DNA of 37,307 nt. Origin: a virus. The notes beneath the pieces are model-generated. The model was not told the origin of the DNA and ran no database searches. It worked only from the letters and a program-made list of their open reading frames with translations. The stretch is taken from the IMG/VR virus record IMGVR_UViG_3300009187_000041, positions 1 to 37,307 of that record; one strand, 5' to 3'. A program made the position numbers and the translations under genes. Shown here one piece after another: positions 2,761-34,477 of this stretch (positions within the stretch are counted from its first letter, which is position 1; the number at the start of each line of letters is the position of its first letter).

Positions 2761-3797
2761 TATATAAAGAAGTCCTCAATAGTTGATGGTTTATGTTCAG
2801 GCAAGCCGCTCCACTTACGACCCTGCCAATGCGGATAGGAATTACGGGATAAATGGACAGACTTTGGCTTCTCCATGTGAGCAAAGTCTAGTTCACCCTT
2901 GTCGTTCATGAGATAGTCGACCCACTTGACGAACCTGACATTGGTGTCACGTACTAGTTCTTCCATTACATCCCTGAAGATGAGACGGATCTCATTACGA
3001 TCTTGCATAGTACCATAGAAAGAAGTACCCTTATAGTATCCGGTCTTAGGAAGTGCACGAGATTCATGTTCGATCGGAAGTAGTTCGTATGCAGACACAC
3101 TGATACCACCGTCAGACAGCTCGTTGAGTTGATCGAAGTATCTCTTGGCAAGATCCTTTGTGGCCTGACGGGGATCAGGTTGACGGCACAGATGATGGCG
3201 TACGTCGATGTTGCCGAAGTAGAACTCTGCAATCTCATGGTGAGGTTCGATGAACGACTGAAGACCTTCCTTCAGTGCACCATGCAGAGTCTTGAACGGA
3301 ACAGAGTTGACAAACCAGCCTGGACGGTACATGCAGATAGCATGACTGTCACCTGCAACAACCTTGGTTGTCGGAGTCATCTGCCTAAGAGTCTTGGCAG
3401 TATTCTCAATACGCTTCAGGTTTTCCCAGTCGACCTTTGCCCAGTCAGGATGGATCTCACCCTTCATACGTGGCTCAAGCATCTCAGAGTATTTAGGATG
3501 ATCGATCCACAGTGAGAAGACATTGCCCTTGAACTGAGAGTACCTAATCAGGTTGTCGATGTTACCGTAGTTCTTCATTCCACCGAATAGGTTAAGAGAT
3601 CCACCCCAGTCATTGCCGTGGTAGACACAAATACTATCGAATGAATTGATATCAGGATGTATGTCACCGGTACGGTCTAGATGTACGGTGTACCCATTCT
3701 CCTCCAGTTGGTTCGCATAGATTGCAGCCTGAGCCGCACGATGCGAATGGATGTTAGAGGAGATGTGGGTGAATGGTGAGGCTACAAGTGTTTTCAT
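2760..3797 (-). CDS. SGNH/GDSL-hydrolase-like protein
   Basis: Possible esterase or acyl-transfer type enzyme; substrate unknown. With the ATG at 3797 the product is 345 aa (a GTG at 3806 would add three residues). A central block I-like motif VVAGDSHAICMYRPG carries GDSH at about 149-152. FYFGNIDVRHHL (about 193-204) resembles the GxID.R.H version of block III, and SVHLSRNSYP near 313-322 supplies the terminal histidine. The N-terminal 120 residues (VYHGNDWGG and LFGGMKNY) are family-specific and unrecognised. A TGTACA-class promoter ends 7 bases before the ATG and no clear Shine-Dalgarno is present, so a leaderless message is conceivable. The upstream PLP-like gene stops at 3806 as TAGTG. 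Confidence 0.5.
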   Translation of the reverse strand: MKTLVASPFTHISSNIHSHRAAQAAIYANQLEENGYTVHLDRTGDIHPDINSFDSICVYHGNDWGGSLNLFGGMKNYGNIDNLIRYSQFKGNVFSLWIDHPKYSEMLEPRMKGEIHPDWAKVDWENLKRIENTAKTLRQMTPTTKVVAGDSHAICMYRPGWFVNSVPFKTLHGALKEGLQSFIEPHHEIAEFYFGNIDVRHHLCRQPDPRQATKDLAKRYFDQLNELSDGGISVSAYELLPIEHESRALPKTGYYKGTSFYGTMQDRNEIRLIFRDVMEELVRDTNVRFVKWVDYLMNDKGELDFAHMEKPKSVHLSRNSYPHWQGRKWSGLPEHKPSTIEDFFI

Positions 3798-3804
3798 ATT
3801 ATTC

Positions 3805-3833
3805 ACTATACATCAAGTGTGGCATAATGTACA
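3805..3833 (-). promoter_or_regulatory. TGTACA-class promoter upstream of the SGNH-like gene
   Basis: TGTACA at 3828-3833, 17-base spacer, TATAGT at 3805-3810. The site overlaps the 3' end of the PLP-like gene and is preceded by an A tract on the minus strand. The -10 ends 7 bases before the ATG at 3797. Confidence 0.6.
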
Positions 3834-4708
3834 TCTTTTTTTGGCCAGTCTCGGTAAGAATCTACACGGTCATAGATGGTGGGATCGTTAAGGACCGGTT
3901 CAGCACCGACGTTCCAGAAGAGGATGTTGCGGTCGGTATTCTTAGGAATGTACTTCCATACCTTACCGTCATATGTATCTATGCACGGAAACGGTGGCAG
4001 GTTCTCAGGCTTCTCGCTTTGTTGGAATGCCATCGGTTCAGAGATAACATCAGCACGACCAAGTTCACCGGCCTTCAGGTTACGTGATACAGCAACCGAA
4101 TGGAACTTGGCATTCGGCCATGCAATCTGCATTGCTCTTGAAAGAACGCCAGTTGAGATGGCCACGTAGACTTCATCAGGTGCTTCGATCTTAGATGCAG
4201 CCTTGACAATACCAGCAGTCACAAGTTCATGTTTCAAACCAAGTGGCACAAAGAATGCATCATCATTCTGGTCTGCCCAGTCGTTGGCAATCTTGTTCAG
4301 GTTCGGCATCGCAGCAATACGATGGAATGATGCCTCTGCACCTTGTTCGATACAACATGCCTGATGATGTGAGATGCGTTGAGCAGAAGGCATGAACAAC
4401 TTTACCTTCTTATCATAACGTTTAGCAACATCAAGGATAGACACACCAGCAAGACCGGTACGTGGCTGCACATACACAATGGTCGACTGATTGATCCTTG
4501 ACATCAGGCAGTCACCACCACGAACCTTTGTTCCTGTGATAAGATCGTCACGAACACAACGGACACCGTCATGCACAGTTACAACTGGATCTGGATATGG
4601 ATCTGTCCATGTGGCAGCAAGATCTAGATAATAGTCCTTGGCCTCTTGCCAAGATCTGTAGCCGACATCCTGGTTATATCCATCGATTACGTGGTTGTTA
4701 TGACTCAT
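3806..4708 (-). CDS. Fold-type-II PLP-dependent enzyme-like protein
   Basis: Tentatively related to the tryptophan-synthase-beta / D-cysteine desulfhydrase / ACC deaminase fold, enzymes acting on amino acids. In 300 aa, CVRDDLITGTKVRGGD (residues 51-66) aligns with the KRDDL..GNKxR motif whose lysine binds PLP, making Lys61 the candidate. A segment TGLAGVSILDVAKRYDKKVKLFMP (about 84-107) looks like the following Rossmann helix and strand. STGVLSRA (185-192) could be the phosphate-binding loop. The usual SNH after the lysine helix is not evident, so activity may differ or be lost. It overlaps the upstream gene by 4 bases (ATGA) and sits inside the candidate base-modification block, where an amino-acid-processing enzyme would make sense. 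Specificity cannot be inferred. Confidence 0.45.
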   Translation of the reverse strand: MSHNNHVIDGYNQDVGYRSWQEAKDYYLDLAATWTDPYPDPVVTVHDGVRCVRDDLITGTKVRGGDCLMSRINQSTIVYVQPRTGLAGVSILDVAKRYDKKVKLFMPSAQRISHHQACCIEQGAEASFHRIAAMPNLNKIANDWADQNDDAFFVPLGLKHELVTAGIVKAASKIEAPDEVYVAISTGVLSRAMQIAWPNAKFHSVAVSRNLKAGELGRADVISEPMAFQQSEKPENLPPFPCIDTYDGKVWKYIPKNTDRNILFWNVGAEPVLNDPTIYDRVDSYRDWPKKDVHYATLDV

Positions 4709-5853
4709 AGTGCCTTCACCATTTCTTTGTACTGCTCGACAGAGATGCCTGCCTGCTTAAGTATATAGTCGTCTGATGGGTGAGACGTCATACCGTTGAA
4801 GGTCTTTACCAGACCGAGGTCGAGCATTGCTCTTTGTCTTCCGAAGGGATGATCCTTGATGCGACATGACGACCAGACACTATCAAAGCAGAGATGGTCG
4901 TAGTCCGAACCTGGCTTAACGTAATTTTCAACCCATCGGATGAAGTCGCAGCATACATCCTCTGCGTTGTAGGGGTAGGCGCCTGTATCGGCATAAATCT
5001 TCTCCATCACCTTGTCTAGGAATAGTTCCTGTTTCATTCTGTCTGTGTTGTTGGCCAGATACGAGATACACTCGACTGCGTTCGTACCGTAGTAGAATGG
5101 ACTATCGAGGTTGCAGTACTCAGGATACCAGTCGCCGATGTCGGCGACCACTGCAGCATACTGGAACTTGTATTGACGAAGCCCATTGGCAACGTTCCAT
5201 GCTAACATCCAGTCACCGATCTCACGAAGATCTCTCTTGGTGTTACTGCCTTGAAGCCAGTCAGCAAGTTCTCTAGCTAGTCGTGGAGCATGCTCAGATA
5301 GGTAGTAGTCTCCACCCTTCTTGTAGTTTGCACCAGCAGGAACCTTAGGGAATGCAGGGAACTGATAGCCGACAGATGTATAGAATGGATACGGATGGTG
5401 GTTCACACGACGAACCATATCCTCGATCGACATACACTCGTATAGGTGAGGAAGTAACGTGTTGTGATAACCTGATGGCTTCTTCGAGTAGTTAATGCCA
5501 GATCCTGTTACACGATGCAGGATAAAGATATACAACCATTCAGGTAGACTGAAGTCGACATGCTTGCCCGTCCAGTCACGTGCGATGTACCCGCGCTCCC
5601 GTGTGTGGAAGCCTTGTTCCATTTTGTGGTAATATGGGTGTTCAGGAGTCCATCCATAGAAGACATCGTTAACGATCTGTGAGAAGCCGGCAAACTTACG
5701 TTCAACAACGTCGTACAGTTCTACGTTTTCGAGGAGGTCATCGCCCATCTGGCTTTCAGCATAGGCAACAGTCCCCAGGTTGCACTTGGCTTGCTGATCT
5801 TTAGCCAGTTCAAAATACCGAAGATATTCGTCATAATATTGTGTCAGTTCCAT
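4705..5853 (-). CDS. Helical protein resembling the aGPT-Pplase / amino-acid:DNA transferase group (tentative)
   Basis: I do not recognise this 382-aa protein with certainty. It is predicted mostly helical, with strongly patterned conserved-looking blocks: LPEWLYIFILHRVTGSGINY (residues 103-122), a YTSVGYQFPAFPK stretch, a GDYYLSEHAPRLARELA helix, QYAAVVADIGDWYPEY, and SPFYYGTNAVECISYLA. The late segment YNAEDVCCDFIRWVENY resembles the (V/A)E..LCEFDKY helix of the HMUDK/aGPT-Pplase superfamily. That superfamily acts on hydroxymethylated pyrimidines in phage DNA, from kinases to amino-acid:DNA transferases. Context supports this: dCMP hydroxymethylase, a UDG-like protein, an Nmad1 protein and a PLP-like enzyme are adjacent. 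The start overlaps the UDG-like gene by 10 bases. Family membership needs a profile search. Confidence 0.4.
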   Translation of the reverse strand: MELTQYYDEYLRYFELAKDQQAKCNLGTVAYAESQMGDDLLENVELYDVVERKFAGFSQIVNDVFYGWTPEHPYYHKMEQGFHTRERGYIARDWTGKHVDFSLPEWLYIFILHRVTGSGINYSKKPSGYHNTLLPHLYECMSIEDMVRRVNHHPYPFYTSVGYQFPAFPKVPAGANYKKGGDYYLSEHAPRLARELADWLQGSNTKRDLREIGDWMLAWNVANGLRQYKFQYAAVVADIGDWYPEYCNLDSPFYYGTNAVECISYLANNTDRMKQELFLDKVMEKIYADTGAYPYNAEDVCCDFIRWVENYVKPGSDYDHLCFDSVWSSCRIKDHPFGRQRAMLDLGLVKTFNGMTSHPSDDYILKQAGISVEQYKEMVKAL

Positions 5854-6197
5854 AGATATTCCATTGCTAAATCGAGTTGATGTCTCTCATACTCGGGGTT
5901 ATTTAGCTGTCTGTTCAGGGGAGATGGGTGAGGCATCATATGATGTGGGATATCGTCCATAGCCGATGATACGAAACCACCGAGGCATATGATCTTGTTA
6001 TAGCCTCGGCAGCATTCATTAATCCAACTATAATCTATATCCGACTTTTTGTACACACCTTCTTTGTGTATAACATTCGTGAATGAGAATTGGTTACAAT
6101 TAAGTTCATCCATCCATTTATGGAGTCGGATTAGTGTAGGATTCTTTTTCTTTTTAAAGCAAGGATTGATGCCAACTACTAGTACATTATGCTTCAT
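5844..6197 (-). CDS. Minimal uracil-DNA-glycosylase-superfamily protein
   Basis: Predicted nucleotide-base-recognising protein of the UDG fold. From the ATG at 6197 the product is 117 aa; longer in-frame starts only read the dCMP deaminase region out of frame. VVGINPCF (residues 7-14) matches motif A of the MUG/TDG-type families (GINP), and MPHPSPLNRQ (88-97) matches motif B (HPSPLxR), which inserts into the DNA minor groove. SFTNVI (38-43) and IICLGG (69-74) fit the central strands. At 117 aa it is much shorter than the usual 160-230. The start overlaps the end of the deaminase gene by 11 bases, implying coupling. In a phage carrying hydroxymethylcytosine it might remove or bind deaminated or modified bases. 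Confidence 0.6.
   Translation of the reverse strand: MKHNVLVVGINPCFKKKKNPTLIRLHKWMDELNCNQFSFTNVIHKEGVYKKSDIDYSWINECCRGYNKIICLGGFVSSAMDDIPHHMMPHPSPLNRQLNNPEYERHQLDLAMEYLWN
6027..6055 (-). promoter_or_regulatory. TGTACA-class promoter inside the UDG-like gene
   Basis: TGTACA at 6050-6055, 17-base spacer, TATAGT at 6027-6032. It lies within coding sequence, about 175 bases upstream of the ATG at 5853, so it would drive the aGPT-Pplase-like, PLP-like and following genes. Confidence 0.5.
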
Positions 6198-6630
6198 GAC
6201 ACAAATACATAACGCCAGCTTCCTGGAACATCTGCTTGGTAAGTAGCATCGAATCTCTCCAGAAGTCAGGAATGTCACTAGGATATTCCATGATCACCTT
6301 CTTGATACCAACTTGGATAATGCCCTTGGCACACTCAGAACAAACAGGAAGGCCGGTAACATAGAGGGTTGCACCGTTAAGTGACACACCAGAGTTGCAT
6401 GCATTATAGATGCAATTCATTTCACCATGTACTACATACTTATACTTATCCTCGCGAACATCATAACGAGCAGTTGTATCTTTGACACCGCGTGGGAAAC
6501 CGTTGTATCCTTGACTCAGGATCTGACCTTTGTCACCAACAGCAACGGCACCTATTTGTTTAGACGGATCCTTAGACCAGGTTGCAACATTCTTGGCAAT
6601 ATCCAAGTAACGCCGTGTCCATTTATTCAT
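6187..6630 (-). CDS. cd: dCMP deaminase
   Basis: Zinc enzyme converting dCMP to dUMP, feeding dTMP synthesis. The 147-aa product has the cytidine-deaminase signature: VVHGEMN (His68-x-Glu70) and PVCSECA (Cys97-x-x-Cys100) as zinc ligands and proton-transfer glutamate. The N-terminus MNKWTRRYLDIAKNVATWSKD is typical of phage dCMP deaminases. T4 Cd is 193 aa; this one is shorter. The start is TAATG-coupled to the dCMP hydroxymethylase stop, so the two dCMP-consuming enzymes are translated together. Confidence 0.92.
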   Translation of the reverse strand: MNKWTRRYLDIAKNVATWSKDPSKQIGAVAVGDKGQILSQGYNGFPRGVKDTTARYDVREDKYKYVVHGEMNCIYNACNSGVSLNGATLYVTGLPVCSECAKGIIQVGIKKVIMEYPSDIPDFWRDSMLLTKQMFQEAGVMYLCHEA

Positions 6631-7280
6631 TACTTTACCTTATCAAAGTGTCTAGAGTACACATGCAGGTTGCCGACATTCCAGATGATCTTTGGCCATG
6701 TCTTAAGATGAAGATCATCAGATAGTTGATTGGCAACATAGGACTGCCATGCATAATCATTACGATATCCGAAGACTACATCATTAGAACGCATCTGTAC
6801 TATGGCAATCAGCTGACCATCACGAATCATATACTGAACTGCATTAGTGCACATGAAGTCTGACATACCGTTATGGTTATAGTCATGCCACATAGTAGGA
6901 CGAGTATAGATCATCACAGCACGACGACTGTTAGGATTCTTTGTCAGTTCGTCGAGCACATTAAGATACTGGAATCCGTTGTCTTCACTGTAGATTGCCC
7001 AACCATAGTTAGAGTTGATCTTACCTTCAGACGAAGCAATCTGTTCCCAGATAGCCGGAGTCTTGCCAGGAATATCCTTGACATATAGAGACATCGACTT
7101 ATACCACTCAAGTTCACGCTGAATGTAGTCATCATTTACGTCACCGAAGATTGATGACTCGTCAGCTTCGAAGCATGCACCGATCATCTCGATAGTCTTA
7201 ACACCAGTCTTGTCAGTGACAAACCTACCCTGCTTCAGTTCTTCGATGAAGTATTCACGGATATGTTCAACTTTAAACAT
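6630..7280 (-). CDS. 42: dCMP hydroxymethylase (gp42-like)
   Basis: Thymidylate-synthase-fold enzyme that uses methylenetetrahydrofolate to make 5-hydroxymethyl-dCMP. From the ATG at 7280 the product is 216 aa and parallels T4 gp42 over nearly its whole length: TDKTGVKTIEMIGA, RELEWYKSMSLYVKDIPGKTP, SNYGWAIYSEDN, LHVYSRHF. The nucleophile is Cys144 in SDFMCTNAVQY (T4 Cys148). Asp175 in RNDYAWQ equals T4 Asp179, the residue that selects dCMP over dUMP where thymidylate synthase has Asn. The C-terminal tail is about 25 residues shorter than in T4. The start overlaps the Nmad1 stop as ATGTTTAA; an in-frame ATG at 7313 is less likely. This implies hydroxymethylcytosine in the phage DNA. Confidence 0.93.
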   Translation of the reverse strand: MFKVEHIREYFIEELKQGRFVTDKTGVKTIEMIGACFEADESSIFGDVNDDYIQRELEWYKSMSLYVKDIPGKTPAIWEQIASSEGKINSNYGWAIYSEDNGFQYLNVLDELTKNPNSRRAVMIYTRPTMWHDYNHNGMSDFMCTNAVQYMIRDGQLIAIVQMRSNDVVFGYRNDYAWQSYVANQLSDDLHLKTWPKIIWNVGNLHVYSRHFDKVK

Positions 7281-16209: not shown

Positions 16210-17574
16210 TTACATAAGGTTGTTAACAAGAACGCGACGGTAGTACTTGTTTGAATCTTCTTCAAGAACTGCAGATGTCTGAGCAGCTGTAGTACCCTTA
16301 GCAAATGGATTTGGAGCCATGCCGTAGCGTGTCTTGAAGCCGATCTTTGGCTGGAAGCTGCTAGGATCGACTGCACGAACCATCTGAAGTGGAACGTATG
16401 GGCAGTAGAACAGACCAGCATCAAAGGCATTCGAACCCTTATAACCAACAACCAAGAAGTTGGCGCCAGCATATGGATCGATATAAACCTTCATACGGCC
16501 GTTAAGAACACCAGCAAATGTGTTGCCTGTGTCATCAACGTTCAGGTTATTGGTGTTAAGAGCAGGAGCGTAGTCAAGAACACCAGCCATCTGAAGAGCA
16601 GACGCAACGTCTGACGAACAGATGATGATGTTACCCTTACCACGACGTGTCTGCTTAGCAATCTGGTTAGCTTCGCGTTCAATCTGGAACAGAAGACCCT
16701 TGAACTTTTCAACCGACCAACGACCGTTTGAGTCGGTGTCAAGATCGAAGACGCCGGTTGTTGTAGTTTCTGAAGCTGCACCCTTTTCAGCAGTGATGAT
16801 GATCGAGCGAACAACTTCACGGTTGATTTCAGCAAGGATTTCACCCGAAAGGATGTTGCTGAGTTCTGTTTCAGCGTCAAGACCGTGAATTGCCTTCAGA
16901 TCCTGTGCAAGTTCAAGCGAGTATTCAGCCTTAAGGGCACGTGTCTTTGCAGATACTGTAACCTTTTCGATACTGAAGCCCATTTCTGGGAACGTATAAC
17001 CAGAATCACCAAGCTTTTCAGCGGAACCTAACAGAAGGCCCATTGTGTAGTTGTAAAGTGCTTGGCTAGCGTTGTTGTTTGCAGATGGAGCTGTACCAAC
17101 TGTGTTAGCACCAACCGAACCAACTGAACCGGTATAACCAGATACGTTAGTTACGTTAGCAGAGTTTAGACCAGCGCCGAGACGCGATGCATGACCTGTG
17201 TTTGCTTCGTTGTAGAATGCTTCTTCATTCAGCTGTGTTGAGTTAGCATACTTTGAACGCATTGCGAAGATAAGACCGGTTGGACCTGTCATTGGCTGAA
17301 CGCCGCAGATGTCGTATGCGATCAGGTTTGGCATCGAACGACGAACCAGTGAGATAAGCACTGGGTCAAAGTTTGAAACGTTACCAGCAACGTTCACTGG
17401 CGACTCGCCAAGAAGCTGCTGTGAAACACCGTTCATGGCATCTTCACGAAGAGCATTTTCGGTGTTTTCTAGAATTTGTGCTGTGACAGCGCGCTTGTGA
17501 GCAGATTCGATCGATGGTAGATCGGTGTGCTCAAGAACGGGCTTCCACTTATTTTGGACTTCCTCAGCTAACAT
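16210..17574 (-). CDS. 23: Major capsid protein gp23
   Basis: HK97-fold hexamer protein of the head. The 454-aa product (T4: 521) has the gp23 landmarks FDPVLISLVRRSMPNLIAYDICGVQPMTGPTGLIFAMRSKY (about 69-109), MGFSIEKVTVSAKTRALKAEYSLELAQDLKAIHGLDAE, and GRMKVYIDPYAGANFLVVGYKGSNAFDAGLFYCPYVPL. An N-terminal propeptide is likely. LLGE (residues 54-57) fits the (L/I)xE prohead-protease consensus, so cleavage after Glu57 would leave about 397 residues. The gene is last in the head operon, with its own late promoter and followed by a strong terminator. Confidence 0.97.
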   Translation of the reverse strand: MLAEEVQNKWKPVLEHTDLPSIESAHKRAVTAQILENTENALREDAMNGVSQQLLGESPVNVAGNVSNFDPVLISLVRRSMPNLIAYDICGVQPMTGPTGLIFAMRSKYANSTQLNEEAFYNEANTGHASRLGAGLNSANVTNVSGYTGSVGSVGANTVGTAPSANNNASQALYNYTMGLLLGSAEKLGDSGYTFPEMGFSIEKVTVSAKTRALKAEYSLELAQDLKAIHGLDAETELSNILSGEILAEINREVVRSIIITAEKGAASETTTTGVFDLDTDSNGRWSVEKFKGLLFQIEREANQIAKQTRRGKGNIIICSSDVASALQMAGVLDYAPALNTNNLNVDDTGNTFAGVLNGRMKVYIDPYAGANFLVVGYKGSNAFDAGLFYCPYVPLQMVRAVDPSSFQPKIGFKTRYGMAPNPFAKGTTAAQTSAVLEEDSNKYYRRVLVNNLM

Positions 17575-17617: not shown

Positions 17618-17625
17618 TATTTATT
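17618..17625 (-). promoter_or_regulatory. Late promoter AATAAATA for gp23
   Basis: AATAAATA on the minus strand, overlapping the gp22 stop and about 43 bases upstream of the gp23 ATG; the leader contains AAAGGGAG. The first base differs from the TATAAATA consensus. Confidence 0.65.
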
Positions 17626-18613
17626 ATTTTGAAGTTCTTGAAATTGACTGCACATATTGTGCCATATGAGCAGGAACTGGAGCAGCCTGCTCATTTAGTT
17701 CTTCAGCTTCTTCAGTAATAACACCAGTTGAGACAACCTTCTTGCCTTCGGCGAAGTACTTGTCTTTGATGATGTTTAGTTTTTTGACATATGTTTCAGC
17801 GTCGCTAAATTCGAGACCTTCAGCAAGTGTACGAAGCTTTTCAACCTGAGTGGCTGCAAGACCTTCGCTAACTTGGTCAAATGATGCTTCTTGGGTTGCT
17901 TCGTCAATGACTGACTGAAGTTCAAGTTGCGTATTAATCGATTCGTCAAGCTTTGCTTCAAGTTCTTCGATTTGTGCATGCAGTTCACCAAGAACGTCAA
18001 TCTTTTCATCAGGAACGTTAATGTATGATTCTGCAAACAGATTACGAAGACCTTCCATAAAGTTTTCAGCAATTTCTGCACGAAGTGATGTTTCGATAGC
18101 GAGCTTATTTTCTTCAACCCACTGCTCAACAACGTAGTCAAGATATTGATCAATCTTGGTTGTTAGTTCTTCTTTGATTTCTTCAACTTCTTCAACAAGT
18201 GCTTCAACAGCTTCTTCTTCAATACGAATGGTTTCAAGATTCATACGGGCTGTAAGAGCAGCTTCGAAAAGTGTCGAAGCACTTTCCTTGAATTCTTCTG
18301 TAAGATCTTCACCAGCAAACATTGCGCTGATGTCTTCCTTGACAGCACCGAGCGTTGCACGTGGCATCTGGCCCAGAGCTGGCTTACCACCAGGAGCTGT
18401 AGCAGATGGTGTCAGAGCAGCTTCCTTGCCGATCTGTGCAAGCGCATCGTTAAGGAAGTGAGAAAGATCATCACCCTTAAGCTGTGCTAGTAGTGATGTG
18501 AAAGTAGCAAGCTTTTCAACTGTGCTTGAACCGGCACCTGGCTTCAGGGTATCTGAACCAGCAGATTCTTCGATATCGTTCTCAACGATTTCGTTATTAT
18601 CCATATCTGACAT
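17624..18613 (-). CDS. 22: Prohead core scaffolding protein gp22
   Basis: Main internal scaffold of the prohead, removed by the gp21 protease before DNA packaging. The 329-aa product is acidic and mostly helical, with a long coiled coil (IRIEEEAVEALVEEVEEIKEELTTKIDQYLDYVVEQWVEENKLAIETSLRAEIAENFMEGLRNLF in the middle, shown by its heptad pattern). KIDVLGELHAQIEELEAKLDESIN follows, as in T4 gp22's C-terminal half. EELNEQAAPVPAHM near the end contains an LNE candidate protease site. T4 gp22 is 269 aa. It has an exact late promoter and a strong AAGGAG site; position between gp21 and gp23 is canonical. Confidence 0.93.
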   Translation of the reverse strand: MSDMDNNEIVENDIEESAGSDTLKPGAGSSTVEKLATFTSLLAQLKGDDLSHFLNDALAQIGKEAALTPSATAPGGKPALGQMPRATLGAVKEDISAMFAGEDLTEEFKESASTLFEAALTARMNLETIRIEEEAVEALVEEVEEIKEELTTKIDQYLDYVVEQWVEENKLAIETSLRAEIAENFMEGLRNLFAESYINVPDEKIDVLGELHAQIEELEAKLDESINTQLELQSVIDEATQEASFDQVSEGLAATQVEKLRTLAEGLEFSDAETYVKKLNIIKDKYFAEGKKVVSTGVITEEAEELNEQAAPVPAHMAQYVQSISRTSK

Positions 18614-18650: not shown

Positions 18651-19304
18651 TTAAGATTTAGAAATCTGGTTGAGAAAGTTCTCAAAGATCTGTAGTTTGC
18701 GTTCTTGAAGATCACGTGATCTAACAGCAGATTCAATCTGCATCTTAGATTTGTGAGCTACCAACATACTGTTTTCCCAGATCCATTCGACACCTTCCAT
18801 AATGCCGTTAACAAATGCATCAGGAGCTGAAGGATCAGCAACGATATCAGCGGCGGTTGCTAGATGGAAATCGTTCTGTACCTCGTTGATGCCTTCCTTG
18901 TTGAGACGCAGAGATCCCATACCGCGAGAAGAAACACCGAGGCGAACACCCGATTCGATAAGACCCTTGGCTGTATTACCCATTGGGGTATCAGTCAACT
19001 TTGCCTTGCCGATCCAGTTCTGACCTTCTTGACGAAGGCTTGTGATTACGTGAGATACACGATCAAGATTGATCTGCGGACCGTCGGGGTGACCTAGTTC
19101 ACCAAGAGCGCGACCAGACTTGACGTATGATTCGTTGTAGCGTTCTACTTCCTTGGCAAGAGTCTCTACTGGGTACATACGACCATTGCGGTTCTTGATA
19201 CCACCTTGAAGGAAGATACCTTCGATGTACATGTTCTTCTTCCCATCTTCACGGGCTTCGGTAACAACGGTTACATCTTCAGTAAGTTCAGTAATTAGTT
19301 TCAT
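18651..19304 (-). CDS. 21: Prohead core protease gp21
   Basis: Serine protease of the herpesvirus-assemblin type that processes capsid and core proteins at (L/I)xE sites. The 217-aa product (T4: 212) has GALGELGHP-type ALGELGHPDGPQINLDRVSHVI (His72) and LGVSSRGMGSL (Ser125/Ser126), giving the His and Ser of the catalytic site. YIEGIFLQGGIKNRNGRMYP near the N-terminus is the conserved substrate-strand region. It starts 5 bases after the unknown 131-aa gene and lies next to gp22 as in T4. Confidence 0.95.
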   Translation of the reverse strand: MKLITELTEDVTVVTEAREDGKKNMYIEGIFLQGGIKNRNGRMYPVETLAKEVERYNESYVKSGRALGELGHPDGPQINLDRVSHVITSLRQEGQNWIGKAKLTDTPMGNTAKGLIESGVRLGVSSRGMGSLRLNKEGINEVQNDFHLATAADIVADPSAPDAFVNGIMEGVEWIWENSMLVAHKSKMQIESAVRSRDLQERKLQIFENFLNQISKS

Positions 19305-19309
19305 GTCTC

Positions 19310-19705
19310 TTACCTATTGTTATATTCTGAAGTGAATGTACCAACCTTTTGTAGTTCAAGTATGCAATAACCGTTTGCAGTTCCTACAAAGTTGACTGCC
19401 AGGTTAGCAGACTGACCTACATTAAGAGGCATGCCGCAACCAGCATAGTCTTTTTGTCCGGTTGAATCATATGTTGCAACAACAGTTGAACCTCTTAGAA
19501 TCTGTACCGAACCAGCATCTGATCCCCAGAATGCCTGTGTGATATATGCACCCGAAAATACTTCATCTTGAATAGCTACACACGTTGATGTGCCATTAAC
19601 ATTGGTTGTTGTGCTATTACCAACAAGTACAATAGGTCCACTATTAGCTTGAGAAACATGCAATACAAATGATGAATTTTTTCTAGTAGAAATTGTAACA
19701 GCCAT
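19310..19705 (-). CDS. Unknown beta-rich protein in the head operon
   Basis: Not recognised. The 131-aa product is beta-strand rich and Ser/Thr/Gly/Asn-rich with two cysteines in the middle (STCVAIQDEVF, DYAGCGMPLN) and one near the end (YCILELQ). SVQILRGSTVVATYDS and ANLAVNFVGTANGYCILELQKVG look like strands of a small sandwich. Position between the core protein gene and gp21, with TAATG coupling, suggests a head component such as a decoration protein. It has an AGAGGTG ribosome-binding site. Confidence 0.5.
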   Translation of the reverse strand: MAVTISTRKNSSFVLHVSQANSGPIVLVGNSTTTNVNGTSTCVAIQDEVFSGAYITQAFWGSDAGSVQILRGSTVVATYDSTGQKDYAGCGMPLNVGQSANLAVNFVGTANGYCILELQKVGTFTSEYNNR

Positions 19706-21183
19706 TATTCACCTCTATTATTAATAGCAAAGTCGAGCATTTGATCTACACCGTCTGGTGTATCACAAGCCTGTAGGAACTTTGATTTGTTATCTTCATT
19801 AAGCTTTTCAAATACTTCTAGCATAACTCTCTGATGTGATTCAGAGATATCACCTAGGCGAGCTTGTAGACGTTCTTCTTTGTTAAGTGGCTTACCACCA
19901 CGTTCTGCAGAGAGCTTAGCTGCGATCGCCATAACACGGCGCTTTGCAGGTGACTTGCCCTTGAACTGTGGGGCATCAGACTTTTCAAAGTCCTTGATGT
20001 ATGTTCCCATAGGTGACTTGGCCGATAGCTTCTCATCGATCTCTTCAACTGCTTCATTAGCAATCTTGCGAACCGTATTCTTACGATTATAGTACTTGCG
20101 AGCATCGTCAGCACTTTTACCGCTCTTTTTAAAGAGATCTGAAAGTTGCTTACCGGCCCTTTGAGCATATGAATCTTTAGTCGCAGCCGAGACTTCATCG
20201 ATCTGCTCTTCACCAAGTGTAGTCTTACCCAGCTTTGTACGAACCATCTTAGCTAGTTTTGATGGATCTACACCAAAGTCTTTAGCTGCTGACATGACAT
20301 GGCTCTTACGAACATTGTCACCATAACGCTTGATAAGGTGTGCAGCAATCTTAGCAGATTCATCAAGATCCTCGATTTCTTCCATTGTATTTTGTTTCTT
20401 GTTAGCATAGCTATCAAACTTACGAACTTGATTGCTGCTTTTAGTTTCGGCCGCACTTGGCCAAGAACCAAACTTACGCGCCTTACGCATCTTTATAAGT
20501 CTATCATCTGCTTTATCGCCAGCTCTTGTTGCTAACTCGGCAGAAAGCTCATCAATCTGTTCGGCTTCTTCGTTTACATTATGGTAGTTTTTGTAAGCTT
20601 GCGCTCTATTCTTAGCATAAGAATGAATAGCTGAATGCTTTTCAAACTGCTCAGCATCTTTAACCAATTTCTTGTAACGCGCTTTGTGCTGTACAGGAGT
20701 TCTTTTCTTAGCTTCAGAACCCTTGTCTTCGTTATCCATCCAATGAAGATTTTTATCTTCGTCGATCTGTTCGGCTTCCTCAGCAACTTTCTTCTTGCTA
20801 CGAAGCATCTTGAAGTCTTGGCTGTCAAGCTTACCATTATGGTTCTTGTCGAGATTCTTTTGGCCGCCTTTTAGTTCTTCCTTGACATATCTATGTCCTG
20901 GCTTTAACTTCTTAGCAGTTTGCATATCTTTATATCTGCCGACAATCTTATCATCTTTATCATAAGCACACACTGCTTCATAGACCTTTTCGTCTTCGCC
21001 AGGGTTATAGCCTTTGCGTTCCTTACGACGATCGATAGCCTTGGTGCTGCCCTTAAAGACATCGTCACCATTGCCGTTGCGGTCAGGATTCTTAGCAGTT
21101 ACGTGCTTGTCGATAAACTTCTGTTCATCGGCAGACTTAACTTTCAAGTAACCTTCTAGAAAATCTTTAAGCGTCTTCGCCAT
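19705..21183 (-). CDS. Large prohead-core-like protein with repeated (I/L)DE motifs and an EF-hand
   Basis: No named homologue recognised. The 492-aa product is highly charged, helical, and sits where T4 has core genes 67/68 between gp20 and gp21. Five acidic motifs recur: EEAEQIDE at 135-142 and 205-212, EEIEDLDE at 268-275, GEEQIDE at 324-330 and VEEIDE at 379-384. Each ends in (I/L)DE, which fits the gp21 protease consensus (L/I)xE, so it may be cut into lysine-rich fragments of roughly 55-140 residues like T4 internal proteins. DKNHNGKLDSQD (112-123) is a canonical EF-hand calcium loop, and DRNGNGDD (34-41) a partial one. The first 16 bases overlap the gp67-like gene. Confidence 0.6.
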   Translation of the reverse strand: MAKTLKDFLEGYLKVKSADEQKFIDKHVTAKNPDRNGNGDDVFKGSTKAIDRRKERKGYNPGEDEKVYEAVCAYDKDDKIVGRYKDMQTAKKLKPGHRYVKEELKGGQKNLDKNHNGKLDSQDFKMLRSKKKVAEEAEQIDEDKNLHWMDNEDKGSEAKKRTPVQHKARYKKLVKDAEQFEKHSAIHSYAKNRAQAYKNYHNVNEEAEQIDELSAELATRAGDKADDRLIKMRKARKFGSWPSAAETKSSNQVRKFDSYANKKQNTMEEIEDLDESAKIAAHLIKRYGDNVRKSHVMSAAKDFGVDPSKLAKMVRTKLGKTTLGEEQIDEVSAATKDSYAQRAGKQLSDLFKKSGKSADDARKYYNRKNTVRKIANEAVEEIDEKLSAKSPMGTYIKDFEKSDAPQFKGKSPAKRRVMAIAAKLSAERGGKPLNKEERLQARLGDISESHQRVMLEVFEKLNEDNKSKFLQACDTPDGVDQMLDFAINNRGE

Positions 21184-21484
21184 CGTCGTCCAGTCCTTCT
21201 AAATCTGAGTCATCAAAGTCTAAATCGTCGTCGTCCAGGTCTAGATCATCAACGTCATCAAATTCGTCTTCATCGATATCATCATCGAGATCGTCTTCGT
21301 CTTCGTCATCTAGATCTTCTGACTCTAAATCTTCTTCAGAAGCATAAAGACCCTGCGCTATATTAGTACGCAATGTGTCAATTGCTTCAGCTGCTTTTTC
21401 GCCCATGATATCATCAAAGGCAGAAGCAAACTTAGTTGGCTGCTGACCGATAGCAAAATTAATTAGTTCATCAACTGTTGGCAT
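21167..21484 (-). CDS. 67: Acidic prohead core protein (gp67-like)
   Basis: Small core protein in the position of T4 gp67. The 105-aa product has an N-terminal amphipathic part (MPTVDELINFAIGQQ and SAFDDIMGEKAAEAIDTLRTNIAQGLY, residues 1-47). An extremely Asp/Glu-rich tail (about 50-105, runs such as DEDEDDLDDDIDEDEFDD) follows. T4 gp67 is 80 aa and also acidic. Function in the core, with proteolysis to a small internal peptide, is inferred from T4. It has an exact late promoter, and its end overlaps the 492-aa core gene by 17 bases. Confidence 0.7.
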   Translation of the reverse strand: MPTVDELINFAIGQQPTKFASAFDDIMGEKAAEAIDTLRTNIAQGLYASEEDLESEDLDDEDEDDLDDDIDEDEFDDVDDLDLDDDDLDFDDSDLEGLDDDGEDA

Positions 21485-23786: not shown

Positions 23787-23794
23787 TATTTATT
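23787..23794 (-). promoter_or_regulatory. Late promoter AATAAATA for gp19
   Basis: AATAAATA on the minus strand, overlapping the gp18 stop, 22 bases before the gp19 ATG; AGGAG follows it. Confidence 0.65.
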
Positions 23795-26678
23795 AGAACT
23801 GGCCAACAACTTCATTGAACTCTACACCAGAGCGGACAGCAACAAAGTTCAACTGAATATAGTTGATGCTCTTAGCTGGCTTGATATAGATGTCACCAAC
23901 AAAGCGGTTGCTATCAATAACTTCTGCAGTATTGTTTGTTTCATCGCAAACAACACGGAAGTCAGTAATACCACGACGGCCTTGAATATCACGTAAGAAT
24001 GGTTCAATCAGATTCAAGAACTGTGCACGAGTGAACTCGTCATTGAACTCGAACAGCATCTGATTTGCGGCTGTGGCGATTGTCTTCTCAAGAGTGATGA
24101 ATAGACGACGAACGTTAATACGATCGAATGCACTTGGACGGCCAAGAGCAGTTTTATCACCAAACAGAATTGTACCCTGACCTGGCTTTGTGATTACTGG
24201 ATTGATATCGCTCTTATACAGTGTATCACAATCTGTCTTGCTTGGGCTATAAGCCAGCTTAACAAGGTTCTTAATCTGGCCACGATTGTAACCAGCAGGT
24301 GAGAACCAAGGATCACGAAGATTGTCTGAACGAGCAGTTAGACCAGCAATATCACCATTCAGTGGGATATAACGGTATACATCATTGTACTTGTCATACT
24401 GATACTTATAACCAGAGTCGATGAATGCATACGAGCTATTACGAACACTCTGACGGAATGTCACAATGTTTGAAGCCTGTAGACCCTCTACATTAGTAGC
24501 ACCAATAACATCGGCACGATCAGGTGAAACAAATACAACACAATCTTTACGTGTTTCGGCAATATTATCAATTAGATAGTTAGCAAGTTGCTCACCATTA
24601 GTACCGCCGCGTGCTTTACCAGTAAGAATCAATGAAACATCAACAGATGAAGCATCGGCAAACAGATCATATGCACTTGCAAGAGCTGCAAGTGAAACGT
24701 CAGTAGAATTTGCACCATCATAACCACCGATGAACGAATCGGAATAAGGAACAATTGATGTTGAATTAATAAGACCAGCAGCAGTAGTTGTAGCAGCACC
24801 TACACGATCGTTTGTTGCCCAAACATAACGCGAGTTGTCATTGATTACTGTCTTATAGAAGTTGGTTGTACCATCTTCACCGATAGCATCAGTTGCACGG
24901 GACAGGTCTTCATAAACTTCAAGGATCGTTCCAGGAGTACCCGAGAACTTACCACCTACGTCTACAACAATAGCACTTACCTGATCAACAGTTGTTAAAC
25001 CACGATCTGATAGATAACGCGATGTACCAGGTGCTGATGCAATAGTGTTATAATATTCCCACTTACGTGAAATTGTATTGCTACTGTAGTTTGTTGACAG
25101 GCCATACGGAGTTTCGACAGTTACTGGGAAGTAAGCAATTGTTGGATCATTAGGAATATTGTTAGCAACAGCACCAAGGGCCTTAATTTTAAGAAATTGT
25201 TTGCCAATTAATGTATTGCCAACTTCGATATAATCACCAACGGTCAATCTATCTCTAATAACACCTGCTGCAACATATGTTTCATCCCATGTTAGTTTTG
25301 AAGATAATGGATTGCCAGCAAGATTAAAGGTAAAACCAGTTGCTGTTGAGTTGATTGAAGAAAAACTGATATTTGAACCGCCAGAAGTTGTTGATAAGCA
25401 GAAACCAGATGTGTTAGTAGACACAGTATAGTATGTAGTACCATTAGTTAGAACAACTGCAATGCCTGATGTATTCGAATATACTACAGTATCACCATTC
25501 GCAAATGGATGATTTGGTGATGTGATAAAGTTTGTAGTATTCGAGATGCTTGAAGTATTTGAAAACAGTGCCAGTGTTGTTGTTGCACCAACTGTATTTG
25601 ATTCAATATAGACATTAGCGGTTGTGCTATTTACTGCAATTGAAAAACCGGTCGTAGGTCCTGGAACATTTGTTGTATTTGTATAACCAGTCAGATCCCG
25701 TGGGTCGATAGTTGAACTATACTGCGCTGCAGAATCACACATAGAAACTTTTAGCGAGTTACCTAGTTCACCAGGATAACGTGCAACAAATTCTGTGCCA
25801 GCAAAGATGGTATTTGAAGGGCCCTTATTTTCAAAGTCTTCAGCATTTTTTACAACAGTAGTTGCTGGGTTTACAGTTGAACTATTAGCAATAGCATTGA
25901 ATGCTAATCCGGCATCAAAGAAAGTTAATGATTGAGTATTAACAGTTGTACTACTACCGTTCAATGCATTAGCAGATAGTGTAACACGCGTTGTGCCTGT
26001 TCTTGCAAGTGTATGGCCGGTTTGTGATGTTCCAGTCGTCAAAGTAATTACTGTACCACCGTAAGAAGCTGCAAGAAATACACCAGATGTGTTTGAATTA
26101 CGCACATAATATGTTGTACCACTAGTTAGTGGCGAAACAGCAGTGTTACCGGCAGCAACAGTATAAAGTACAGGTTCACCATCTACTAGAGAGTGTGAAA
26201 TTGTAATAAATCCGCTAGTAGCTACTGCAGAACTGGCATTAAACGATGCTGAAAGTGTAGATGTATTTACAGAAGCAACAGTTGTTCCATATGGAATAAT
26301 TGTTGGGCTAGCATGAACTTTTTGACCTGCAGTAATACCTGTTGTAGTATTTGCTGCAAAAACAATATATTGGTCACCGCGAAGCTCTGAAGATTTATAG
26401 ACGGTTGTTGCTGCTGATGTAGTTGCAGCACGAGAAACATAAAGGGCATTACCATACGAAAGGAAGTTAGCCGCTGTGAAGAATGTTTCATAGTTGTCTG
26501 ATGTTGGTTTGCCGTAACGGGCAACCAGAGTATTTTCTGAATCTACCAGAACAAACTTTCCAACAGGACCCCAACGAAACACGCCGCCAATAGCACCTGT
26601 TGTGGTTGCTAGAGCCGGTACTGTTGTTGTAAGATCAATCTCGGAAATGTTAATTCCAGGGCTAACTTGAAATGCCAT
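23793..26678 (-). CDS. 18: Tail sheath protein gp18, enlarged by inserted modules
   Basis: Contractile sheath subunit. At 961 aa it is far longer than T4 gp18 (659). The N-terminus (VSPGINISEIDLTT, GAIGGVFRWGPVGKFVLVDSENTLVARYGKP) and the C-terminal third (FVSPDRADVIG, TARSDNLRDPWFSPAGYNRGQIKN, LFGDKTALGRPSAFDRINVRRLFITLEKTIA, LIEPFLRDIQGRRGITDFRVVCDETNN) are classical sheath. In between lie two related Ser/Thr/Asn-rich modules at about 159-226 and 383-453, each with DG(E/D)xVxY, GTTYY, NTSG and GGxxI. These probably decorate the sheath exterior. It has an exact late promoter and an AAGGGAG site. Confidence 0.95.
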   Translation of the reverse strand: MAFQVSPGINISEIDLTTTVPALATTTGAIGGVFRWGPVGKFVLVDSENTLVARYGKPTSDNYETFFTAANFLSYGNALYVSRAATTSAATTVYKSSELRGDQYIVFAANTTTGITAGQKVHASPTIIPYGTTVASVNTSTLSASFNASSAVATSGFITISHSLVDGEPVLYTVAAGNTAVSPLTSGTTYYVRNSNTSGVFLAASYGGTVITLTTGTSQTGHTLARTGTTRVTLSANALNGSSTTVNTQSLTFFDAGLAFNAIANSSTVNPATTVVKNAEDFENKGPSNTIFAGTEFVARYPGELGNSLKVSMCDSAAQYSSTIDPRDLTGYTNTTNVPGPTTGFSIAVNSTTANVYIESNTVGATTTLALFSNTSSISNTTNFITSPNHPFANGDTVVYSNTSGIAVVLTNGTTYYTVSTNTSGFCLSTTSGGSNISFSSINSTATGFTFNLAGNPLSSKLTWDETYVAAGVIRDRLTVGDYIEVGNTLIGKQFLKIKALGAVANNIPNDPTIAYFPVTVETPYGLSTNYSSNTISRKWEYYNTIASAPGTSRYLSDRGLTTVDQVSAIVVDVGGKFSGTPGTILEVYEDLSRATDAIGEDGTTNFYKTVINDNSRYVWATNDRVGAATTTAAGLINSTSIVPYSDSFIGGYDGANSTDVSLAALASAYDLFADASSVDVSLILTGKARGGTNGEQLANYLIDNIAETRKDCVVFVSPDRADVIGATNVEGLQASNIVTFRQSVRNSSYAFIDSGYKYQYDKYNDVYRYIPLNGDIAGLTARSDNLRDPWFSPAGYNRGQIKNLVKLAYSPSKTDCDTLYKSDINPVITKPGQGTILFGDKTALGRPSAFDRINVRRLFITLEKTIATAANQMLFEFNDEFTRAQFLNLIEPFLRDIQGRRGITDFRVVCDETNNTAEVIDSNRFVGDIYIKPAKSINYIQLNFVAVRSGVEFNEVVGQF

Positions 26679-32695: not shown

Positions 32696-34477
32696 TTAAT
32701 AACCTAATGCTTGCCAGAACATTGTTCTAGACGTAGTAGAACCAGTACGAACATTACAGGTTGATGTAGTTTGAGCAATGACGTTTGGATATCCGTTAAC
32801 AATATACGTAGTAGCTGGTGTAACCGTCACTCCTAAAATTGCTGTTGGAAACGATACCGGGAAGGTAACATTACCTGCTGTTGTGTTGGAAGCCACAGTT
32901 CCCCACTGCATTAATATACCATTAGGTAACCAAGCATAACCTGGATCCGCTTTAGATGAAGATCCTAGAACCATTGTATTAGAACCGATAGATAATACTG
33001 CTCCAGGATTATTATTTTGAATACCTACATTTCCATTTGCTGCAATAAAGATTGAAGTAAAATTATTGTTATTTGCTGCAATTGAAAATGAATTGCCGAC
33101 CCCCGTAAACACATTAAATGGATTTATTGTTAATGTATTAGCACCAGACGCAACAGAAATACTTTGAGTGTTTATTACTAATGAGTTTGCAATAGTTACA
33201 TTGTTTGTAGTTTTGTCAAATGTAAATGCGGCGCTTCCACCAAATGCACCAGAATCATTAAATTGTACCTGAGTATTGGTGCCGCCAGGTGTACCACCGC
33301 TGCTTGATCCCCAATAACCTGCGTCGCCTTTAGATCCAGTATAACCAACAGAACCCCAATAGCCAGCAGATCCAGTATAACCAACAGAACCCCAGTAGCC
33401 AACAGAACCCCAGTAGCCAGCAGATCCTGAATAGCCAGTTGAGCCTGAATAACCAGTTGAGCCTGAATAGCCAGTTGAGCCTGAATAGCCAGTTGAGCCT
33501 GAATAACCAACAGAACCCCAGTAGCCAGCAGATCCTGAATAGCCAGTTGAGCCTGAATAACCAACTGATCCAGTATAACCAACAGAACCCCAGTAGCCAG
33601 CAGATCCAGTATAACCAACAGATCCTGAATAGCCAGTTGATCCAGTGTCGCCTTTATCACCAGTTCTTACAAATGTAATAATAACATCTAAGTTATTTGC
33701 AAATGCAGTAGTGCCATTTAAGAAAGCAACTGGCACATGAAAATGGTTCACATCTTCAGTATGATAACCATTAATAGAAAAATTAGCTGCGTTTAATACA
33801 TTAGCTTGCTCATATAGTTTAAATGTACCTTTAATAGCAGATGTTGAGTCATCAATTGTTTGTAAAAAGTTATAATTATTTGCACTAAATTGATCTAAAT
33901 AATTAATATAAAGTATACTTGCTGAACTCAAATTTAAATTATTAAAAAATAGCACACCGGTAGCAGGAGTTGTATCAACCGTATTATTACTAAATAGATA
34001 TTCAAATGAAGCGCCACCAAAGTCGCCCTTATCACCTTTAGAACCCCAGTAACCAATATCACCTTTAGAACCCCAGTAGCCTGTATCACCCCTAGAACCC
34101 CAATAACCATTATCGCCTTTAGAACCCCAGTAGCCAGCAGATCCTGAATATCCAACAGAACCGGTATAACCTACAGATCCCCAATAGCCATTATCACCTT
34201 TAGAACCCCAGTAGCCTGTATCACCCCTAGAACCCCAGTAGCCTGTATCACCCCTAGAACCCCAGTAGCCAACAGATCCTGTGTAACCCCTAGAACCCCA
34301 GTAGCCAACAGAACCGGTGTAACCTGTATCACCTCCACCGCCACCACCACCGCCTGCTCCCCAATATACTGCAGATCCATTTGATAATAGAGCTTGGCCG
34401 GATGTTCCAATGGATCCATTAGCTACAATGCCCTTGAGCGACAAATTATTAAATAAATGAATAGTATCTTTAGACAT
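32696..34477 (-). CDS. Collagen-like tail-fibre protein with gp53-like C-terminal tip
   Basis: Predicted trimeric fibre. In 593 aa there are two Gly-X-Y collagen-like stretches, residues about 49-154 and 272-391, built of GYWGSR/GYTGSV/GYSGST hexads with GDKGD variants. A globular beta segment (155-271) separates them, and an eight-glycine hinge (43-49 region) precedes the first. The C-terminus (about 500-593) has GYAWLPNGILMQWGTV, VTFPVSFPTAILGV and final FWQALGY. This is the layout of the gp53-like tail-fibre tip domain that binds receptors. The 8-bp ATGTCTAA overlap links it to the lectin-like gene upstream. Confidence 0.8.
   Translation of the reverse strand: MSKDTIHLFNNLSLKGIVANGSIGTSGQALLSNGSAVYWGAGGGGGGGGDTGYTGSVGYWGSRGYTGSVGYWGSRGDTGYWGSRGDTGYWGSKGDNGYWGSVGYTGSVGYSGSAGYWGSKGDNGYWGSRGDTGYWGSKGDIGYWGSKGDKGDFGGASFEYLFSNNTVDTTPATGVLFFNNLNLSSASILYINYLDQFSANNYNFLQTIDDSTSAIKGTFKLYEQANVLNAANFSINGYHTEDVNHFHVPVAFLNGTTAFANNLDVIITFVRTGDKGDTGSTGYSGSVGYTGSAGYWGSVGYTGSVGYSGSTGYSGSAGYWGSVGYSGSTGYSGSTGYSGSTGYSGSTGYSGSAGYWGSVGYWGSVGYTGSAGYWGSVGYTGSKGDAGYWGSSSGGTPGGTNTQVQFNDSGAFGGSAAFTFDKTTNNVTIANSLVINTQSISVASGANTLTINPFNVFTGVGNSFSIAANNNNFTSIFIAANGNVGIQNNNPGAVLSIGSNTMVLGSSSKADPGYAWLPNGILMQWGTVASNTTAGNVTFPVSFPTAILGVTVTPATTYIVNGYPNVIAQTTSTCNVRTGSTTSRTMFWQALGY
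33305..33664. repeat. Tandem 18-base-type coding repeat, second collagen segment
   Basis: About 20 degenerate units of 18 bases (plus-strand core CCAGTAGCCAGCAGATCC and variants) encode GYxGSx hexads. Near-identical adjacent units (GYSGST five times in a row) indicate recent slippage or unequal exchange. Confidence 0.9.
34016..34333. repeat. Tandem coding repeat, first collagen segment
   Basis: About 17 degenerate 18-base units encoding GYWGSR, GDTGYWGSK and related hexads. It is related to, but richer in GDxGYWGS units than, the second repeat tract of the same gene. Confidence 0.88.

Follow-up and report, generated by a model that had tools for sequence, protein, structure and literature searches.

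Introduction

The prohead protease gp21 of bacteriophage T4 follows the published cutting rule L/I-X-E (PMC9026906), and T4 gp67, gp68 and gp22 are cut by it into several pieces (PMC9026906, PMC5694885). In T4 IPIII, Asp at the P1 position inhibits processing (PMC9026906). The T-even phages vary widely in their set of internal proteins (IP) (PMC3012670). In head proteins of phiKZ and SPN3US, the prohead protease cuts several post-Glu sites per protein (PMC10052503); the polyvalent proteins are multi-domain chains predicted to be injected, for which processing has been proposed (Iyer et al. 2017, PMC5512222). A search of the open-access journal literature gave no description of the protein type analyzed here or of its cleavage. 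Based on comparative sequence analysis, it is probably a prohead-core polyprotein that would be cut by gp21 at the borders of cassettes into small head proteins delivered with the DNA.

Genomic context

On the minus strand of the window (the whole analyzed stretch of DNA, a virus record of 37,307 bases), the genes of a T4-like head and tail are clustered in the order gp18, gp19, gp20, an acidic gp67-like gene, the cassette polyprotein gene, a 131-aa gene, gp21, gp22 and gp23. The genes of the head region are:

21167..21484 (-): short acidic gp67-like prohead core protein (position and composition)
19705..21183 (-): cassette polyprotein, 492 aa (ORF call; at the position of T4 gene 68)
19310-19705 (-): 131-aa gene (p131), family unknown; between polyprotein and gp21, position kept in relatives
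18651..19304 (-): gp21 prohead protease, candidate cutter (Peptidase_S77, 4.1e-34)
17624..18613 (-): gp22 scaffold (family matches)
16210..17574 (-): gp23 major capsid protein, with its own predicted gp21 site LLGE ahead of the mature core

Since the T4 gene order is 20-67-68-21-22-23, the polyprotein occupies the place of gene 68: it sits between genes 67 and 21 as the latter does, with one extra 131-aa gene before gp21. This position in the prohead-core region, between the gp67-like and gp21 genes, agrees with the assignment as a core protein made in an earlier, sequence-only reading of the locus. The order gp20-67-X-p131-21-22-23 was found in almost all relatives as far as their flanks reach (exception: L075). 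The gp67-like protein matched a PHROG prohead family at E 0.044 only; the gp21 of the window shared 41% identity with T4 gp21 over 148 residues and retained the H and S motifs. Sequence homology of the polyprotein to T4 gp68 was not detected: profile comparison gave a non-significant E-value of 0.098 (score 16.5 versus at most 15.8 for shuffled sequences). Pfam and PHROGs searches with the window polyprotein yielded nothing at 1e-3, and when PDB sequences were searched using the family profile, a spurious spidroin match alone was returned (E 0.027). In the scan of bacterial genomes a single metagenome-assembled contig matched, probably a phage contig binned there.

Three further observations concern the surroundings of the gene. 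In the relatives L003, L004 and L006, the 131-aa gene is separated from gp21 by approximately 2.5 kb of additional DNA that is present in none of the other relatives. The gp18-like tail sheath protein of the window (23793-26678) comprises 961 aa versus approximately 660 aa in the other T4-like records examined, its family matches being split by a long extra region. The protein at 32696-34477 contains long GYTGSVGYWGS-like collagen-type repeats and is probably part of a tail fibre.

Anatomy of the 492-residue protein

The polyprotein is composed of constant terminal segments and four inner cassettes (all on the minus strand):

20758..21183 (-): constant N-terminal segment, residues 1-142, with CTS-like leader, DEQKFIDKH domain, EF-like loop and first site
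21151..21183 (-): leader MAKTLKDFLEG, residues 1-11 (identified by eye; targeting function putative)
20875..20976 (-): extra insert after VYE, residues 70-103, marking another point of cassette insertion; modeled as ordered
20815..20850 (-): EF-hand-like loop DKNHNGKLDSQD, residues 112-123 (loop fit and conservation)
20758..20781 (-): site 1, EEAEQIDE, residues 135-142 (motif)
20548..20757 (-): cassette K, residues 143-212, terminating in site 2, EEAEQIDE
20359..20547 (-): cassette L, residues 213-275, terminating in site 3, EEIEDLDE
20194..20358 (-): cassette I, residues 276-330, terminating in site 4, LGEEQIDE
20032..20193 (-): cassette A, residues 331-384, terminating in site 5, EAVEEIDE
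19708..20031 (-): constant C-terminal segment, residues 385-492 (constant among relatives)
19840..19848 (-): conserved [IL]xE, ISE448 (ISE/LAE/LSE/IAE in 36/36 relatives)
19795..19803 (-): conserved [IL]xE, LNE463 (LNE/LSE in 36/36 relatives)

The five acidic (I/L)DE repeats noted by the sequence-only reading were confirmed at their exact positions, ending at residues 142, 212, 275, 330 and 384, with an acidic stretch ahead of each; composition shuffles contained 0.34 (I/L)DE on average (P ~5e-5). In total, eight [IL]xE are present in the polyprotein compared with 3.9 expected, and ISE448 and LNE463 of the C-terminal part as well as LGE325 were absent from the earlier list. The lengths between the (I/L)DE sites are 142, 70, 63, 55, 54 and 108 residues; the proposed division into comparable pieces thus holds for the inner four only. 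Of the small basic fragments claimed before, the cassette bodies by themselves have a net charge of +6 to +8, and whole fragments that keep the acidic 8-residue tail are only weakly basic (+1 to +4); the net charge was positive in 76/76 distinct cassette bodies. The chain is basic, as described before, and helices prevail in the AlphaFold2 model of the whole protein, whose confidence is low (pTM 0.24). For one module with 66 relatives, a helical hairpin was modeled with confidence (pLDDT 92), the motif lying in a low-confidence tail. Foldseek searches gave no significant matches for the whole-protein model and only generic helical hairpins for the module model, none with an E-value < 0.001. 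Judged by eye, the leader resembles the targeting leader MKTYQEFIAE of T4 IPII/IPIII; it reads MAKTLKDFLNE in 25 of 36 relatives and MAKTLKDFLEG in the window, where FLEG lacks the (I/L)xE.

The loop DKNHNGKLDSQD had been regarded as a canonical EF-hand. It is indeed a real, conserved element that matches the EF-hand loop except for position 12, which is Asp and not Glu; its score against Pfam EF-hand_1 (13.0 bits) is below the gathering cut-off of 25.4. The calcium-ligand residues D1, N3, N5, D9 and D12 are conserved in at least 31 of 33 distinct contexts, some of them N-terminal and others in the interior of different proteins. The loop is thus itself a mobile, conserved cassette; calcium sensing, as suggested by the earlier reading, would be a putative function.

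Exchange of cassettes among relatives

A scan of viral contigs retrieved 80 relatives, of which 36 complete proteins were used for the comparison of cassette orders. The clustering was performed without the shared motif, which had chained unrelated cassettes together. Between constant N- and C-terminal segments, the relatives contain modules in a series that varies, and every module closes with an EEAEQIDE-type motif; the inner modules fell into 33 cassette families that occurred in 30 different orders among the 36 complete relatives. For cassette A, six different neighbours occur on the left and six on the right, and cassette I is preceded by the N segment, cassette C or cassette L, depending on the phage. 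Where the same cassette has different neighbours, identity is approximately 0.6-0.9 on the cassette side and approximately 0.1 beyond the 8-residue motif. At the DNA level, the distance to a site is no more than 30 nt for 67% of the 641 interior homology ends (chance 18.7%, sd 1.6); the variable region has only 18 ends away from sites, and many of the remaining ones are located close to the VYE insertion point of the N-segment. The comparison of the window with L002 shows such an event directly: homology stops at codon 142, and cassettes K and L are absent together as one block, although the flanking gp21 is 100% identical over the part present and gp20 98%. Several of the counts reported here and below use related sequences of incomplete independence; in view of this shared ancestry, P values serve as guides. 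As judged from these comparisons, what the sites delimit is an assortment of cassettes that can be exchanged, with the exchange at the sites. This shuffling is the strongest feature of the family and was missed by the sequence-only reading.

Conservation of the sites and avoidance of the triplet within cassettes

The gp21 substrate motif (L/I)xE is present at the cassette borders. In order to avoid circularity, the upstream residues were read from an anchor in the module body: among the 187 distinct contexts, 97% have [ILVM]xE, P1 being Glu in 97% and P3 being I/L/V/M in 99%. Decay of the acidic lead (e.g. QALFE, PINE, ILAE) leaves the [ILV]xE triplet in place. Conversely, [IL]xE is absent from 125 dereplicated 42-residue body windows (0 versus 14.8 expected). 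In the variable part of the bodies, its number is likewise 0 versus 9.3 expected, with [IL]xD at expectation (21 versus 21.2) and no significant depletion of the mirror motif E.[IL] (6 versus 9.4). An alternative definition, bodies between sites, gave 1 versus 7.5 and 7 versus 30.8 expected; 18 non-virion proteins of the window, used as control, were not depleted (65 versus 49.6).

The proposed correspondence to the gp21 rule is thus upheld at the borders and complemented by avoidance of the triplet within modules. The parallel to T4 internal proteins that had been suggested is also borne out, as T4 IPI, IPII and IPIII have [IL]xE at the leader cleavage site only; the cassettes likewise contain no (I/L)xE within the predicted mature part. 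By this border-only triplet, the cassettes resemble the T4 internal proteins in being predicted to be cuttable at the border and not inside. In gp23 of the same phages, the LxE ahead of the mature core is kept and the site is [LM]LGE; unlike the latter, most cassette sites have Asp or Glu at P2, and equal cutting by gp21 is therefore an assumption. A gp21-type S77 protease is encoded by 8/8 cassette-bearing records of at least 100 kb. Domain searches detected no protease domain in the polyprotein, and the "self"-segmenting chain of the earlier reading is rejected on this basis; the candidate protease is the separate gp21. Altogether, the site pattern supports cutting by gp21 into what would be small, intact internal proteins.

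Wider family and second locus

The module query matched at least 290 loci. In distant T4-like viruses (gp23 identity approximately 58-65%), the gp20-gp21 interval encodes a protein with a DExxFxxKH-type N-domain and three to seven sites, and gene 070 of phiM12 is a cassette-free relative of the N-domain (hhalign E 2.4e-5). In L113 (4616-6269) and L100 (6659-7832), cassettes are fused to gp22, several of them being located N-terminally of the scaffold (PHROG 237, E 7e-77 in L113). Cassettes are also present outside the head cluster: L075 has a second locus beside a cytidylyltransferase gene, where one of the cassette proteins contains cassette K at 89% identity. This locus (L075:1864-11839) encodes a cytidylyltransferase with DUF6321 and cassettes, a Dps/ferritin-like protein, several cassette proteins and a primase. 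A cyanophage cytidylyltransferase has been detected as a virion protein (PMC3037559), which makes a virion role of the second locus at most plausible. As a separate observation, HicA_toxin (PF07927) cassettes occur in related polyproteins of L103 (5397-7145), L156 (ORF 2843-7139) and L075 (9592-10341) with E-values of 2.4e-12, 2.1e-11 and 1.4e-6, respectively; they directly follow (I/L)xE, e.g. LDE, LTE or IEE.

Proposed function and alternative explanations

The cassettes, their exchange at the sites, the conservation of these sites, the triplet avoidance and the gene position are shown by the sequences themselves; for packaging, cleavage, retention and delivery of the cassettes, we infer the following course. 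The leader and the constant N-part probably bring the chain into the assembling core, by analogy with T4. After shell assembly, gp21 would cleave behind each (I/L)xE at the cassette borders and free proteins of approximately 50-90 residues with basic bodies, the commonest type of which is predicted to be a helical hairpin; the C-terminal part with its two more conserved sites would probably be cut further. The freed proteins may remain in the head and probably exit with the DNA. Cassettes would be swapped, added or dropped through recombination in the coding sequence that the sites have in common, with the result of an own cassette set per phage lineage. Points against this course are the acidic P2 of most sites, the weak net charge of fragments with the acidic tail, the window leader devoid of (I/L)xE and the presence of cassettes outside the head cluster.

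The identical gene position of T4 gp68 could also indicate a sacrificial scaffold like gp67/gp68, of which gp21 cuts the pieces that then exit the head, the cassettes having no post-assembly function. Most of T4 gp67, gp68 and gp22 is removed after cutting (PMC9026906), and the extra sites in the conserved C-part would be in accordance with such a fate. However, the avoidance of [IL]xE inside the cassettes implies pieces that must stay whole, while gp22, a digested scaffold, contains 15 [IL]xE versus 8.2 expected; moreover, a scaffold needs no diverse cassette content. We consider this explanation unlikely. It is still less probable that the motif stays uncut and serves as a linker or docking peptide, by which the modules of one long virion chain are attached to another core protein. 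In favour of this, the motif exceeds the requirements of gp21 in length and acidity, and its place is the module's flexible tail; but P1 Glu and the aliphatic P3 persist once the acidic lead is lost, and exactly that triplet is avoided inside the bodies.

The breaks of homology at the motif and its unusually constant 5' GAAGAA might point to conservation as a DNA recombination site only, without a protein role. However, synonymous matches at P1, P2 and P5 (0.48, 0.53 and 0.50) do not exceed expectation (0.70, 0.55 and 0.69). Residues are kept and codons are not, which argues against a pure DNA site, and the triplet avoidance in the bodies is left unexplained; this reading is therefore disfavoured and very improbable. 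Release of cassettes by gp21 for packaging in the head is preferred. A more far-reaching version of this preferred reading is conceivable, but can be put forward only tentatively: combinatorial delivery in T4-like environmental phages, in which protease-released cassettes are exchanged across lineages and at least two loci and, after packing into the head, enter the host by injection along with the genome as a lineage-specific set of small DNA- or host-directed proteins that may include HicA-like RNase toxins in sister proteins.

If the preferred reading is true, a large class of unannotated proteins of aquatic T4-like phages would be head cargo with readable cut sites; (I/L)xE at the borders and none inside would be a rule for finding packaged proteins from sequence; and cargo would be exchanged modularly like tail fibres, yet within one polyprotein.

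Comparison with known systems

The T4 gp67/gp68/gp22 proteins have gene position and (L/I)xE sites in common with the cassette polyprotein; T4 gp68 comprises 141 aa, is devoid of cassettes and has no detectable homology to it. In phiKZ and SPN3US, the multiply cut part is a propeptide and mostly discarded, and swappable cassettes are not reported in the accessible part of the source. Polyvalent proteins contain enzymatic domains and often their own peptidase, whereas the modules described here are small, helical and without known domain, with an external protease; enzymatic domains of the polyvalent type gave no Pfam match in the window polyprotein, HicA_toxin cassettes being restricted to other loci. 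Gene 070 of Sinorhizobium phage phiM12 shares gene position and N-domain with the polyprotein but differs in its length (135 aa) and in lacking cassettes and the EF-like loop. The isolates P-TIM68 (Prochlorococcus phage, AIR93496), S-SKS1 (AGH31595) and Cr30 (Caulobacter phage, AGS80949) encode proteins whose modules and sites are of this type but that are located away from gp20-gp21, unlike in the window; those of P-TIM68 and Cr30 adjoin or are near a cytidylyltransferase gene. T4 IPI, IPII and IPIII (and Alt) are, like the cassettes are proposed to be, small head-packed proteins; they have a short leader (MKTYQEFIAE), and the single (I/L)xE of IPI-III at the leader end, with none in the mature chain, matches the cassette pattern. 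In contrast to the T4 internal proteins, which are encoded by one gene each, a single chain at the position of gene 68 combines many cassettes here, each of them exchanged on its own.
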